Assembly (NCBI GenBank): GCA_018222345.1 | Contig: JAAFAL010000014.1 | Coordinates: 1 to 36,459, forward strand | Source of the DNA: a bacterium | GTDB taxonomy: Bacteria; Pseudomonadota; Gammaproteobacteria; Nevskiales; OUC007 | Length of the DNA stretch: 36,459 nt | Direction: 5' to 3' | Translations under genes and position numbers: made by a program | The notes under the pieces: model-generated | Told to the model about the DNA's origin: nothing | What the model saw: the letters and a program-made list of their open reading frames with translations, nothing else | The model's database searches: none | Part shown: piece by piece, positions 17,839 to 21,328 of the stretch | How the letters are laid out: every line of letters starts with the position of its first letter | Position numbering within the stretch: the first letter of the stretch is position 1

Positions 17839-18242
17839 GGTTGTAACCCCAAAGCGTTTTGCAGGCGTTGAATTTCGGCACTGGTATCTGCAATCGGCTG
17901 CGGCGTGCCAACACCCCACACCGGGCCCGGCCACGCGGCGTCGCCCAGTTTGCGGGCGATTACGTGAATGTGCAGTTGCGGCACCTGATTACCCAACGCG
18001 GCAATGTTGAGTTTGTCGCCGCCGGTGTGCGCCATGAGTGCCCGGCCCATGTCGGTGGCTTCGCCCCACAACGTGGCCTGCTCGGCCGCCGGCAGTTCGT
18101 AAGCCTCGACAATGTCGGCGCGCTGCGGCACCAGGATAAGCCAGGCGAAGCGGGCATCGTTCATGCGCAACACGCGGCACAGCGGCAGGTCGCCAACATG
18201 CAGCGTGTCGGCCGCCAGCCGTGGATGCAGCACGAAGCTCAT
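17835..18242 (-). CDS. HIT-domain protein
   Basis: This 135-residue histidine-triad protein ends its core with QVPQLHIHVIAR (about 86-97). The first histidine of the usual HxHxH triad is Gln, a variant I associate with one bacterial HIT subgroup; the last two histidines are kept. Family members hydrolyse or transfer nucleotidyl groups. It overlaps both neighbours by ATGA, so it is tightly coupled to the rubredoxin reductase and MAPEG genes. Confidence 0.85.
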   Translation of the reverse strand: MSFVLHPRLAADTLHVGDLPLCRVLRMNDARFAWLILVPQRADIVEAYELPAAEQATLWGEATDMGRALMAHTGGDKLNIAALGNQVPQLHIHVIARKLGDAAWPGPVWGVGTPQPIADTSAEIQRLQNALGLQP

Positions 18243-19390
18243 ACCAGTAGCGGCGGCATGGTTTTGGCCAGTTCGCCGCGGCGCGCCAACTTATCGCCGG
18301 TCAGCGCAAAACCCAGTGGCTCGCCGCCAGGCGACTCGAACACCGCTTCGAAGTTCGGGCTGTCACCGTCGATGCGCCAAGCGCCGGCGTCGGTCGCCGG
18401 TGGGCAGACTACCGTGGGGCATACAGGCGTTTTGACGATCACTGGCATTGCCGGCAGCGACAGCTTGGTCGGCTCGCCGGCCAGCGTCTTGGCCAATGTG
18501 CGTGCGCAGTGGGTGATGGGCAGTACATAAGGCAGCACTTGGCCGCCGGGCAGTTCGGCGCAGTCGCCCAAGGCAAAAATGTTCGGGTTGCTAGTTTGCA
18601 TTGTGGCGTCAACCTGGATGCCACGGCCGCAGGCCAGGCCGGCTGCATCGGCAAGCCCCGTGTTAGGCACCAGGCCGATGGCCGACAACACGACGTCGGC
18701 GGCGATGGTCGCACCGTGGCTAGTCGTGACTGCAAAGCCATCTTCGCTGTGGTTCACGGCAGTGGCCATTTGGCGCAACCCCAAGTGCACACCCAGGCCG
18801 TGCAAGGCATTGCCAATCGCCACGCCAACGGGCTCGGGCACCAGCCGGCCTAGCGGCCAGCCCAGCGGGTCGATGAGCGTGACTTTGAAACCATTGCTGC
18901 CCAGGTCGTTAGCAAATTCGCAGCCGATCAGCCCCGCGCCCAAAATGGCCACGCGTTTTTTGCTGTGCAGCCGGCTGCGGAAGTCGCGATAGTCAGCCAA
19001 ACTGTTGACATGCAGGATACTGCCGATGCCGTCGCCTTCTACTGGGCAGGCGCGCTGGTTGGCACCGACGGCCAGCACCAGCTTGCTGTAGCTGATGCGG
19101 TCGGTGTCGGTGGTGATGCTTTGGCTTTGCGGGTCGATGCCGGTCACGCGCGTATTGGCCAGCACCGTGGCGCCAAGCGCTTCGGCCTGGGCCTCGGCGG
19201 GCTTCATCACCAGCGCCTGGGCATCTTTGCCGTCGGCAAAAGCCTTGGACAAGTTGGGCTTGTAGTAGGCCGCGCCGTCGTCAGCGCTGATGAGTGTCAG
19301 CGGCGTGTCGGGCGCCTGCTTGCGAAACTCGCGGGCCAGTGTGTAACCGGCGTGGCCGGTGCCGATGATGACGACAGGTGCAGCAGTCAT
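18239..19390 (-). CDS. Rubredoxin-NAD(+) reductase
   Basis: This 383-residue FAD enzyme moves electrons from NADH to rubredoxin for the alkane hydroxylase. The FAD fold starts VVIIGTGHAGYTLA, the NAD-binding site is ILGAGLIGCEF, and the second FAD motif is IFALGDCAEL. YYKPNLSKAFADGK is typical of the AlkT/RubB/NorW type. The ATG at 19390 is preferred to an in-frame TTG that overlaps the rubredoxin stop. It lies between the rubredoxin and HIT genes in one operon. Confidence 0.93.
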   Translation of the reverse strand: MTAAPVVIIGTGHAGYTLAREFRKQAPDTPLTLISADDGAAYYKPNLSKAFADGKDAQALVMKPAEAQAEALGATVLANTRVTGIDPQSQSITTDTDRISYSKLVLAVGANQRACPVEGDGIGSILHVNSLADYRDFRSRLHSKKRVAILGAGLIGCEFANDLGSNGFKVTLIDPLGWPLGRLVPEPVGVAIGNALHGLGVHLGLRQMATAVNHSEDGFAVTTSHGATIAADVVLSAIGLVPNTGLADAAGLACGRGIQVDATMQTSNPNIFALGDCAELPGGQVLPYVLPITHCARTLAKTLAGEPTKLSLPAMPVIVKTPVCPTVVCPPATDAGAWRIDGDSPNFEAVFESPGGEPLGFALTGDKLARRGELAKTMPPLLV

Positions 19391-19394
19391 GGCC

Positions 19395-19574
19395 TTAGCC
19401 AATCTGGATCATTTCGAAGTCGGCTTTGCCGGCGCCGCAGTCGGGGCAGGTCCAGTCGTCGGGCACATCGCCCCAAGCGGTGCCCGGCGCAATGCCGTCG
19501 TCAGGCCAGCCTTCGGCTTCGTCGTAGATCAGGCCGCAGACCAGGCATTCCCAGCGTTTGGTGTTGTCACTCAC
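19395..19574 (-). CDS. Rubredoxin, AlkG2-like
   Basis: This 59-residue one-iron rubredoxin has both cysteine pairs, in [20 protein letters not shown] and [15 protein letters not shown]. The second motif is the plain CPDCG form of the rubredoxins that pass electrons to AlkB. The start is either GTG at 19574 (used here) or TTG at 19583; both follow GAGGA or GAAG sequences at imperfect spacing. It overlaps the 3' end of the damaged first rubredoxin if the TTG is used. It should be the working electron carrier of this locus. Confidence 0.93.
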
Positions 19575-19579
19575 GTTCT

Positions 19580-19751
19580 TCAATTGTCCTCAGTCGGTTC
19601 GAATTCGGGTTTTTCGCACACCGCGCAAGCGGGGCACGGGAAGTCCTCGGGCAGTTCGTCCCAAGTGGTTCCGGGCGGGTAGCCCTCGCGGGGCAAGCCC
19701 GCCGTCTCATCATAAACGTAGCCGCAGCCGGTGCACGTGTACCTCGCCATA
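19580..19751 (-). pseudogene. First rubredoxin gene (AlkG1-like), frameshifted at codon 4
   Basis: The reading frame ending at 19580 encodes a rubredoxin: TCTGCGYVYDETAGLPREG ... WDELPEDFPCPACAVCEKPEFE, with the extended second motif of AlkG1-type proteins. In that frame there is no ATG, GTG or TTG between an upstream stop and the first cysteine. The expected start, ATG at 19749-19751, gives Met-Ala-Arg and then TAA (19740-19742). Removing one A would restore MARYTCTGCGYVYDE. The ATG is also only five bases from the MITE-like element and has no ribosome binding site. It is a recently broken gene or a single-base sequence error. Confidence 0.8.
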
Positions 19752-19756
19752 GTATT

Positions 19757-20024
19757 AGGGCCTGGTCACACTATTTGAATGCGCCTCGCCGAAGGCAGAT
19801 TTTTTGCTAGGCAAGGCGTGTTGAGCGCCGTTTAGTACGGCTAAATCAGCGAAACACAACGCAGCATAGTGAAAAATCTGTCCGGCCCGAAGGGTTGACC
19901 CTGAAATCAAGCCATCCGGCGTTGCTCGTCGTTCATTTGGAATGACCAAATATCTCTCCTCGCGCCTTGACTGGCCTGATTTCAGGGTCAACGCGGCACA
20001 TTCAAATAGTGTGACCAGGCCCTA
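19757..20024. mobile_element. MITE-like element with 24-bp perfect terminal inverted repeats and TA flanks
   Basis: The left end GGGCCTGGTCACACTATTTG continues to 19782, and its exact reverse complement lies at 19999-20022. Each end is flanked by TA (19757-19758 and 20023-20024), as for elements moved by IS630/Tc1-type transposases. Inside are nested inverted repeats: CAGATTTTT/AAAAATCTG (19797-19805, 19872-19880), a 16-bp pair (19894-19909, 19977-19992) and ATTTGG/CCAAAT (19935-19951). No credible transposase gene is present. It lies between the alkB terminator and the damaged rubredoxin gene; the 19752-20128 gap otherwise holds only that terminator. Confidence 0.85.
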
Positions 20025-20036
20025 GTGATTCAAGCC

Positions 20037-20068
20037 AAAAAAATGGGCGCGGCTGTTGGGCCGCGCCC
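20037..20068 (-). terminator. Intrinsic terminator of alkB
   Basis: Read on the minus strand, a perfect 9-bp stem (GGGCGCGGC / GCCGCGCCC) with a 6-base loop is followed within one base by seven T residues (A at 20037-20043 on the plus strand). It lies about 60 bases after the alkB stop and separates alkB from the rubredoxin genes. Confidence 0.9.
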
Positions 20069-20128: not shown

Positions 20129-21328
20129 TTAGGCGGCAGCGGCGGCCGGCGTTTCCACCGCGCGGTGCCACTTGTCCATCAACTTGGCCTCTTTACCGGG
20201 CTGTAGTGCAGCTTTGGTGAGGTCGTAGTTGTGATGCTCGGCGACGCGCTTGTCCATCATCCAGCTCCATAGCGGCGGAACGTAGGCGATCAACAACATG
20301 GCGGCATAACCGGACGGCAATTGCGGCGCATCGGGGAATTCACGCAGCGCCTGGTAGTGGCGCGTGGGGTTGGCATGGTGGTCGCTGTGGCGCTGCAATT
20401 GATACAGGAACAGGTTGGTGACGATGTGATTGCTGTTCCAACTATGGTGCGGTTGGCAACGCTCGTAGCGGCCGTTGTCTAGCTTCTGCCGGCGCAGGCC
20501 GTAGTGCTCCAGGTAGTTGACAACCTCGAGCAGCGAAAAGCCGTAAACCGCCTGAATCAGCAGGAAGGGCACGATGATCCAGCCCAACAAGGCGATCAGC
20601 CCACCCCACAACACCAGCGTCATGGCCCAGGCGTTGAGATTGTCATTCTCGATACTCCACACCGATTTGCCGCGGCGTGCCAGGCGTTCTTTTTCAATCG
20701 TCCAGGCACTACGTAGGCTGCCGAATATGGTGCGCGGCAAGAATGCGTAGAGGTTCTCGCCCATGCGCGAACTGGCTGGATCTTCCGGCGTGGCCACACG
20801 CTTGTGGTGGCCACGGTTGTGCTCGACAAAGAAATGACCATACGCCAGTGGCGCCAGGGTGATCTTGGCCAGCCAACGCTCGGCGGTGCCCGTTTTATGG
20901 CCAAGTTCGTGCGCGGTGTTGATGGCAACACCGGACACACCACCAACGGACAAAGTGATACCCAGCGCGGCCCACCACGGCAGGCCAGCGGTGGCGATCA
21001 TCCACGCACCCCAAATAAACGTGCCGTAGTACAGCGGGATATAGAGGTAGAGGATCCAGCGGTAGTAGCTGTCTTCGCTCAACGTGGGCACGACCGCTTC
21101 CGGCGGGTTGTTTTCGTCGGTGTCGAAGATCATGTCGAGGAACGGCAGCACGCCATAGACGAACAACAGCGAGAAGTACCAGAACACGCCCAAGCCCGTA
21201 GCCTCGACCAGCCCCCAGCCCACCAGCGGCAGCACGGGCACGATCATGCCCAGCATCCACAAGTAGCGGCGCGAGTCGGAATAGCTGACAGTTTCACCGT
21301 TGTCGGCGGTGGCTGTGTAAGTTGTCAT
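20129..21328 (-). CDS. alkB: Alkane 1-monooxygenase AlkB
   Basis: This 399-residue integral membrane di-iron hydroxylase oxidises the terminal carbon of n-alkanes using O2 and rubredoxin electrons. All AlkB histidine boxes are present: HELGH (140-144), EHNRGHH (169-175) and LQRHSDHHA (311-319), plus the AlkB signature NYLEHYGL (271-278). Six hydrophobic segments and the NNPPEAVVP loop also fit. Start ATG at 21328 has AGGAG nine bases before it. A promoter with an overlapping inverted repeat lies upstream, and a terminator follows. The C-terminus ends in a plain alanine tail without a fused rubredoxin. Confidence 0.97.
   Translation of the reverse strand: MTTYTATADNGETVSYSDSRRYLWMLGMIVPVLPLVGWGLVEATGLGVFWYFSLLFVYGVLPFLDMIFDTDENNPPEAVVPTLSEDSYYRWILYLYIPLYYGTFIWGAWMIATAGLPWWAALGITLSVGGVSGVAINTAHELGHKTGTAERWLAKITLAPLAYGHFFVEHNRGHHKRVATPEDPASSRMGENLYAFLPRTIFGSLRSAWTIEKERLARRGKSVWSIENDNLNAWAMTLVLWGGLIALLGWIIVPFLLIQAVYGFSLLEVVNYLEHYGLRRQKLDNGRYERCQPHHSWNSNHIVTNLFLYQLQRHSDHHANPTRHYQALREFPDAPQLPSGYAAMLLIAYVPPLWSWMMDKRVAEHHNYDLTKAALQPGKEAKLMDKWHRAVETPAAAAA

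Follow-up and report, generated by a model that had tools for sequence, protein, structure and literature searches.

A non-autonomous inverted-repeat element beside an intact AlkG1-type rubredoxin gene, and the folded core it shares with elements carrying other ends

The alkane locus and the inserted element

The window, that is, the whole stretch of 36,459 nucleotides that was analysed, carries an alkane locus on its reverse strand. Read in this direction, alkB is followed by a terminator-like hairpin, the element, five bases, two rubredoxin genes (here rubredoxin 1 and rubredoxin 2) and a rubredoxin reductase gene. The features are:

20129-21328, reverse strand: alkB, alkane monooxygenase (Pfam FA_desaturase)
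20036-20068, reverse strand: intrinsic-terminator-like hairpin 3' of alkB, nine G-C pairs and then a T-run
19756-20024, no strand: non-autonomous element (MITE), 269 bp with the TA at each end and 265 bp without the TAs; recognised by inverted repeats, five copies and fold
19999-20022, no strand: terminal inverted repeat at the other end, pairing with 19758-19781
19886-19994, reverse strand: structured arm A, covariance model R1, 114.6 bits, E 4e-19 (a rough value from a shortened calibration; the window copy is among the 17 training sequences)
19786-19894, forward strand: structured arm B, model R1, 74.9 bits, E 3.7e-11 (equally rough; outside the training set)
19758-19781, no strand: terminal inverted repeat GGGCCTGGTCACACTATTTGAATG, perfect over 24 bp, partner at 19999-20022
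19751-19755, no strand: the five bases between the element end and the ATG of rubredoxin 1
19580-19750, reverse strand: rubredoxin 1, AlkG1-type, 56 aa, intact (Pfam rubredoxin, E 1e-15)
19395-19583, reverse strand: rubredoxin 2, AlkG2-type, its TTG start overlapping the stop of rubredoxin 1
18239-19390, reverse strand: rubredoxin reductase (Pyr_redox_2 and Rbx_binding)

The nearest AlkB sequences, from uncultured Salinisphaerales and Abyssibacter, are 65% identical to that of the window. In three relatives (G002, G003 and G007), alkB is followed by a hairpin with a T-run, an AlkG1-type and an AlkG2-type rubredoxin gene, and no element lies in the gap. A fourth (G001) has the same gene order and hairpin, and a distinct member of the superfamily described below lies between alkB and the hairpin. 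Because the element-free relatives already have the terminator-like hairpin in the gap, the uncoupling of alkB from the rubredoxin genes is likely older than the insertion in the window and independent of it. The view of an earlier note on this DNA, that the insertion separates alkB from its electron-transfer genes, is therefore not confirmed. The element of G001 (L144, contig C12, about 126614-126860) is an independent one with ends TTAAGGAAACACTGACC, upstream of the alkB terminator-like hairpin. Elsewhere in the window, a gene for an Xre/MbcA/ParS-type antitoxin (PF09722; 15574-15969, forward strand) is followed by one for a RES-domain protein (PF08808; 16049-16789, forward strand), a probable RES-Xre toxin-antitoxin pair.

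The two ends of the element form inverted repeats of 33 nt (19756-19788 and 19992-20024) that are 94% complementary; their outer 26 nt are perfect including the TA, which leaves 24 bp inside it. When the assembly (3.0 Mb, 220 contigs) was searched for copies of the element, as the earlier note had proposed, five full-length ones with 90-100% identity were found, the window copy included, and all of them have a TA at either end. The pattern of the terminal inverted repeat occurs 11 times in this genome, compared to 0 for the reversed control. Repeats and copy number are far beyond chance. Folded as single-stranded DNA, the window element reaches -82 kcal/mol compared to -38 kcal/mol for shuffles (z -11.5); in this fold, the ends pair into an outer stem that encloses two large arms. 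A short, non-coding sequence (269 bp) that is bounded by 24-bp terminal inverted repeats and present in five copies is a MITE, so the earlier description of a MITE-like element with perfect 24-bp ends and TA flanks stands, as does its placement five bases before the ATG of rubredoxin 1. Compared to the other four copies, the window copy carries G for T at one position, and does so in both ends, a pattern that could reflect copying of one end onto the other or descent from an already symmetric source. A 29-bp remnant in the same genome (G000, L023, C166:55929-55960) looks like one element end joined almost without a gap to the terminal bases of its counterpart. Some copies, in G053 and in the window's own genome (L164, L002), start where the adjoining open reading frame ends, the TAG of the element end apparently serving as its stop codon. 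The terminal inverted repeat had no matches in viral contigs, and the element was not found in phage records.

Rubredoxin 1 and the effect of the insertion

On the reverse strand from 19750, rubredoxin 1 reads ATG GCG AGG TAC ACG TGC and continues uninterrupted to a TGA. AlkG1 rubredoxins carry CXXCG and CXXCX, AlkG2 rubredoxins two CXXCG motifs, and AlkG1 is not essential (PMC8918992). By this rule rubredoxin 1, with CTGCG and CPACA, is of the AlkG1 type, as had been proposed, and rubredoxin 2, with two CXXCG motifs, of the AlkG2 type. The arginine of CxxC[AG]VR, which lies outside the published AlkG1 rule, is conserved among the AlkG1-like sequences gathered for this comparison and absent in rubredoxin 1, where a cysteine follows the second cysteine pair (arginine in 31/31 other AlkG1-like sequences). 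Phe and Glu stand at two further conserved sites. The solved structure closest to rubredoxin 1 (E 9e-18) is the AlkB-fused rubredoxin domain of Fontimonas thermophila (8f6t), in which fusion to AlkB is natural (PMC10113152); this organism is a relative with an AlkG1-type rubredoxin like that of the window. Since the closest solved relative is a natural AlkB fusion, it is not safe to assume for the window's order that AlkG1 types are poor partners of AlkB, as the earlier note had done.

Rubredoxin 1 has no Shine-Dalgarno sequence, and all four relatives have one: the duplex with the anti-Shine-Dalgarno sequence amounts to -2.5 kcal/mol, compared to -4.6 to -10.3 kcal/mol in the relatives. The missing ribosome binding site was thus correctly noted before. 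When the flanks of the element are joined, the duplex is -1.5 kcal/mol and again no Shine-Dalgarno sequence appears, so its loss is not due to simple insertion. Either drift removed it, or a deletion that has left no visible trace. Rubredoxin 2 has an SD-like GAGG within the end of rubredoxin 1, and an alternative GTG start a few codons downstream.

We are fairly confident that the locus represents a non-autonomous element recognised by an IS5-family transposase, lying beside an intact AlkG1-type rubredoxin gene on which its effect is probably quantitative. An IS5-family transposase (transpos_IS5_3) acting at TA/CTAG sites would recognise the ends, and the element would have inserted between the alkB terminator-like hairpin and rubredoxin 1, five bases before the start codon of the latter. 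A transcript running across the element should then form a very stable hairpin, the base of which lies five bases from an ATG without a Shine-Dalgarno sequence. Rubredoxin 1 would be translated poorly, the local effect likely being a quantitative one, and rubredoxin 2, which belongs to the AlkG2 type, whose support of AlkB has been demonstrated elsewhere, would still be made via its own Shine-Dalgarno sequence. A sigma-70-like promoter for the rubredoxin genes was looked for and not found.

A stronger effect, in which loss of the Shine-Dalgarno sequence and the insertion together have silenced rubredoxin 1, so that an intact gene goes untranslated and drifts toward loss, is possible and rather unlikely. 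The weak duplexes before the start codon, with and without the element, are in line with it. Rubredoxin 1 is 55-58% identical to that of the family relatives, a lower value than is seen for AlkB (64-68%) or rubredoxin 2 (79-81%); when the relatives are compared with one another, conservation of rubredoxin 1 is similar to that of AlkB. Relative-rate counts of 10:2, 9:4 and 10:5 point to faster change in the window's lineage, one of the three exceeding the chi-square value of 3.84, and three substitutions hit positions that are conserved in 94% or more of the relatives. Relaxed constraint on rubredoxin 1 is plausible. On the other hand, dN is 0.32-0.36 and dS is above 1.3 or saturated, which places most of the divergence under purifying selection. 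A further point against silencing is that the reading frame may be kept only for the overlapping rubredoxin 2: as the TTG of rubredoxin 2 overlaps rubredoxin 1 and the SD-like GAGG lies inside it, this start and Shine-Dalgarno sequence may be what keeps the end of rubredoxin 1 open. The same observations bear on the earlier proposal that the AlkG1-like rubredoxin became dispensable. Divergence, the missing Shine-Dalgarno sequence and the unique exchange of Arg to Cys hint at dispensability, whereas the iron-binding cysteines and the glycine and proline invariants have all been preserved and dN is much lower than dS.

It is improbable that the element regulates the operon and has been retained because, as a promoter, a processing site or a control of read-through, it helps to set the ratio of AlkB to rubredoxins. 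Its very strong structure would suit such a role, and so would the different superfamily element that G001 independently carries in the same gap, on the alkB side of the hairpin. Elements of this kind are frequent in these genomes, however, with about 20 loci in the window's own, so coincidence is plausible. A consensus scan of the element found no sigma-70-like promoter, and three relatives have no element in this gap.

Finally, the earlier note saw a freshly decayed AlkG1 pseudogene, shifted out of frame by one base at codon 4 as a result of, or together with, insertion of an IS630-type MITE; this is scarcely credible, since the lack of a Shine-Dalgarno sequence, the fast divergence and the exchange of Arg to Cys would agree with decay, but direct translation refutes the frameshift (19740-19742 read TAC and the A-run is absent), the frame is open from ATG to stop over 19580-19750 with neither a frameshift nor a premature stop, the product scores as a rubredoxin with all invariant cysteines, and the ends of the element match IS5 rather than IS630 in a genome where DDE_3 is absent. 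The comparison with relatives, also suggested in that note and made here with relatives from other genera, gave three element-free loci and one with a different element; the frameshift that was to be compared is itself absent. Locally, this corrects a false pseudogene call and leaves an ordinary insertion beside an intact rubredoxin gene.

Ends of the element and a putative transposase partner

The ends of the element were compared with those of insertion sequences. When 274 gammaproteobacterial genomes were scanned for TAGGGYCTGTTSACRYT and for its reversed control, the former matched in 21 of them and the latter in none. One pair of matches in G199 spans 806 bp, carries TAGGGCCTGTTCACACT at both ends and encodes a transposase of 251 aa that belongs to NCBIfam transpos_IS5_3 (NF033580, E 7e-55) and contains Pfam DUF4096 (PF13340) and DDE_Tnp_1 (PF01609). 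The end TAGGGCCTGTTCACACT of the other four copies of the element is identical to the end of this IS5-family insertion sequence, and the 17-bp ends of the latter show one mismatch to the window copy. Homologous insertion sequences occur on plasmids of Pseudomonas, Polaromonas, Paraburkholderia, Enterobacter and Cupriavidus and in the genome G041, with the ends CTAGGGC[CG]TGTT[AC]ACACTA (divided as C-TA-GGGC...) or TAGGGCGTGTTGCCGTTTC. Small MITE elements with GTTGCCGTTTC-type ends were found in other genomes of the genus of G041. Because homologous IS5-family insertion sequences carry the same or nearly the same ends, those of the element are most likely recognised by an IS5-family transposase and not by one of IS630. 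Judging from the TA/CTAG targets, the partner probably belongs to the IS427-like group. An autonomous partner in the same genome is usual for a MITE and not strictly required. Searches with PF13340 and the IS5_3 protein found no IS5_3 or DUF4096 transposase in the window's own genome, whose 220-contig, 98%-complete assembly may lack the partner.

TA flanks are typical of IS630, and the earlier note had accordingly looked to an IS630-type transposase. That the element is an IS630/Tc1-mariner MITE has next to no probability: the TA flanks would fit, but the IS630 transposase domain DDE_3 has no match in the own genome and only two across the five genomes searched, neither with the ends of the element, and no IS630 element with such ends was seen in these genomes, whereas several IS5-family elements have them.

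Empty sites were available for other elements of the superfamily. The joined flanks of four elements in G375 (genus g261) align uninterrupted to the sister genomes G369 and G391; therefore these elements are real insertions. The net gain at the empty sites equals the element plus about 2 bp where it was measurable, the junction bases having diverged in the sister genomes. We infer a TA duplication at the window site, and mobilisation of the element in trans by an IS5 transposase.

Elements sharing a folded core

Arm A consists of a stem and a conserved loop, CAAGGCGCGAGGAGAG..TTTGGTCATTCCAAATGAACGACGAGCAACGCCG, and the model built from it finds arm B in the window as its inverted homologue. 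By BLAST, the core matches in many genomes whose elements carry other ends, among them TAAGGAAGCTCTGATTGAATC in the own genome, TTAAGGAAACACTGACC in G001, TAGGGTCTGTTGACGTTT on plasmids of Azotobacter and Pseudomonas aeruginosa, TAGGGCCTGTTGACGTTTCA on a Halomonas plasmid, TAGGGCCTGTTAACACG and others. Nearly all of these superfamily elements are 265-276 bp long. Under one common structure for an alignment of 20 elements, 94% of the cells pair, compared to 68% (maximum 70%) in column shuffles, and changes on both sides occur in 81 of 94 pairs; these figures are supportive rather than a formal test, as this alignment itself yielded the structure and relatedness among its rows exaggerates the contrast with the shuffles. 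Arm A alone shows compensatory changes in 27 of 36 pairs, and its loop, CAAGGCGCGAGGAGAG..TTTGGT.ATTCCAAATGAACGACGAG.AACGCCG, is conserved in sequence while the stems vary. With E-values that are rough owing to the shortened calibration, the arm A model has matches at E <= 1e-5 in 23 genomes out of a set of 143 from Gammaproteobacteria, each from a different genus; in a phylum-wide sample it matches in 23 of 120 genomes, 16 of them outside the class. The own genome holds about 20 loci of this model. No family of Rfam 15 reaches its gathering score for the element, sub-threshold matches being those of chance. Keywords and sequence strings retrieved no description of the superfamily from the open-access literature; a prior description elsewhere is possible.

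Further forms of these elements were observed. A second set in the own genome (G000), 275-290 bp long with ends TA[AG]GGAAGCTCTGATTGAATC and the same core arms, occupies about 15 loci (L006, L008-L012 and L018-L020; contigs C66, C118, C147, C154, C62, C123, C83 and C213). A 48-bp palindrome in G178 (L215, C6:37079-37126), one of two such copies there, consists of two TAGGGCCTGTTGACATTT ends and is a minimal element without a core. In G099, a superfamily element of 435 bp (L199, C37:135783-136217) seemingly carries a further insertion within one core arm. A relation of the folded arms to integron attC sites was considered and dropped, the consensus, judged by eye, having no attC core sites.

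We tentatively suggest, as a real possibility that falls short of probable, that these elements form an undescribed and widespread superfamily of about 268 bp, in which two homologous arms, inverted relative to each other on either side of a CCCGAAGGG mini-hairpin, are conserved in structure and loops and the ends have been exchanged or re-adapted to different IS5-family transposases. If so, selection would act on the ends and also on the fold, whether as single-stranded DNA, a cruciform or RNA. MITEs are usually viewed as shrunken insertion sequences with a freely drifting interior. Here, covarying stems and conserved loops extend over a very large evolutionary distance despite clearly different ends. 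It can now be tested whether the interior of a MITE has a job of its own, such as binding of a transposase or host factor, a hairpin intermediate or an RNA function, and whether a MITE can change its transposase partner without losing its core. The conserved-core superfamily is the interesting part of this work, and the locus itself is ordinary.

Compared with known systems, rubredoxin 1 resembles AlkG1-type and AlkB-fused rubredoxins (8f6t) in its CXXCG and CPXCA motifs and in that these, too, lie adjacent to or fused with AlkB; it differs from the 8f6t type in being a stand-alone protein and in the change of Arg to Cys after the second cysteine pair. The element has the same or nearly the same terminal inverted repeat and TA/CTAG flanks as IS5-family insertion sequences (transpos_IS5_3, IS427-like), but it lacks a transposase gene and has a folded core that is absent from the insertion sequence. 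With the bacterial MITEs Correia, ERIC/RU and QMITE (reviewed in PMC10969869) it shares being short, bounded by terminal inverted repeats, intergenic, multi-copy, non-coding and of high fold potential. In contrast to these, it has a conserved interior that folds into two arms and shows compensatory changes in the stems. Its sequence presumably differs from theirs as well, and its two-arm interior is common to elements with different ends in many families and beyond the class.
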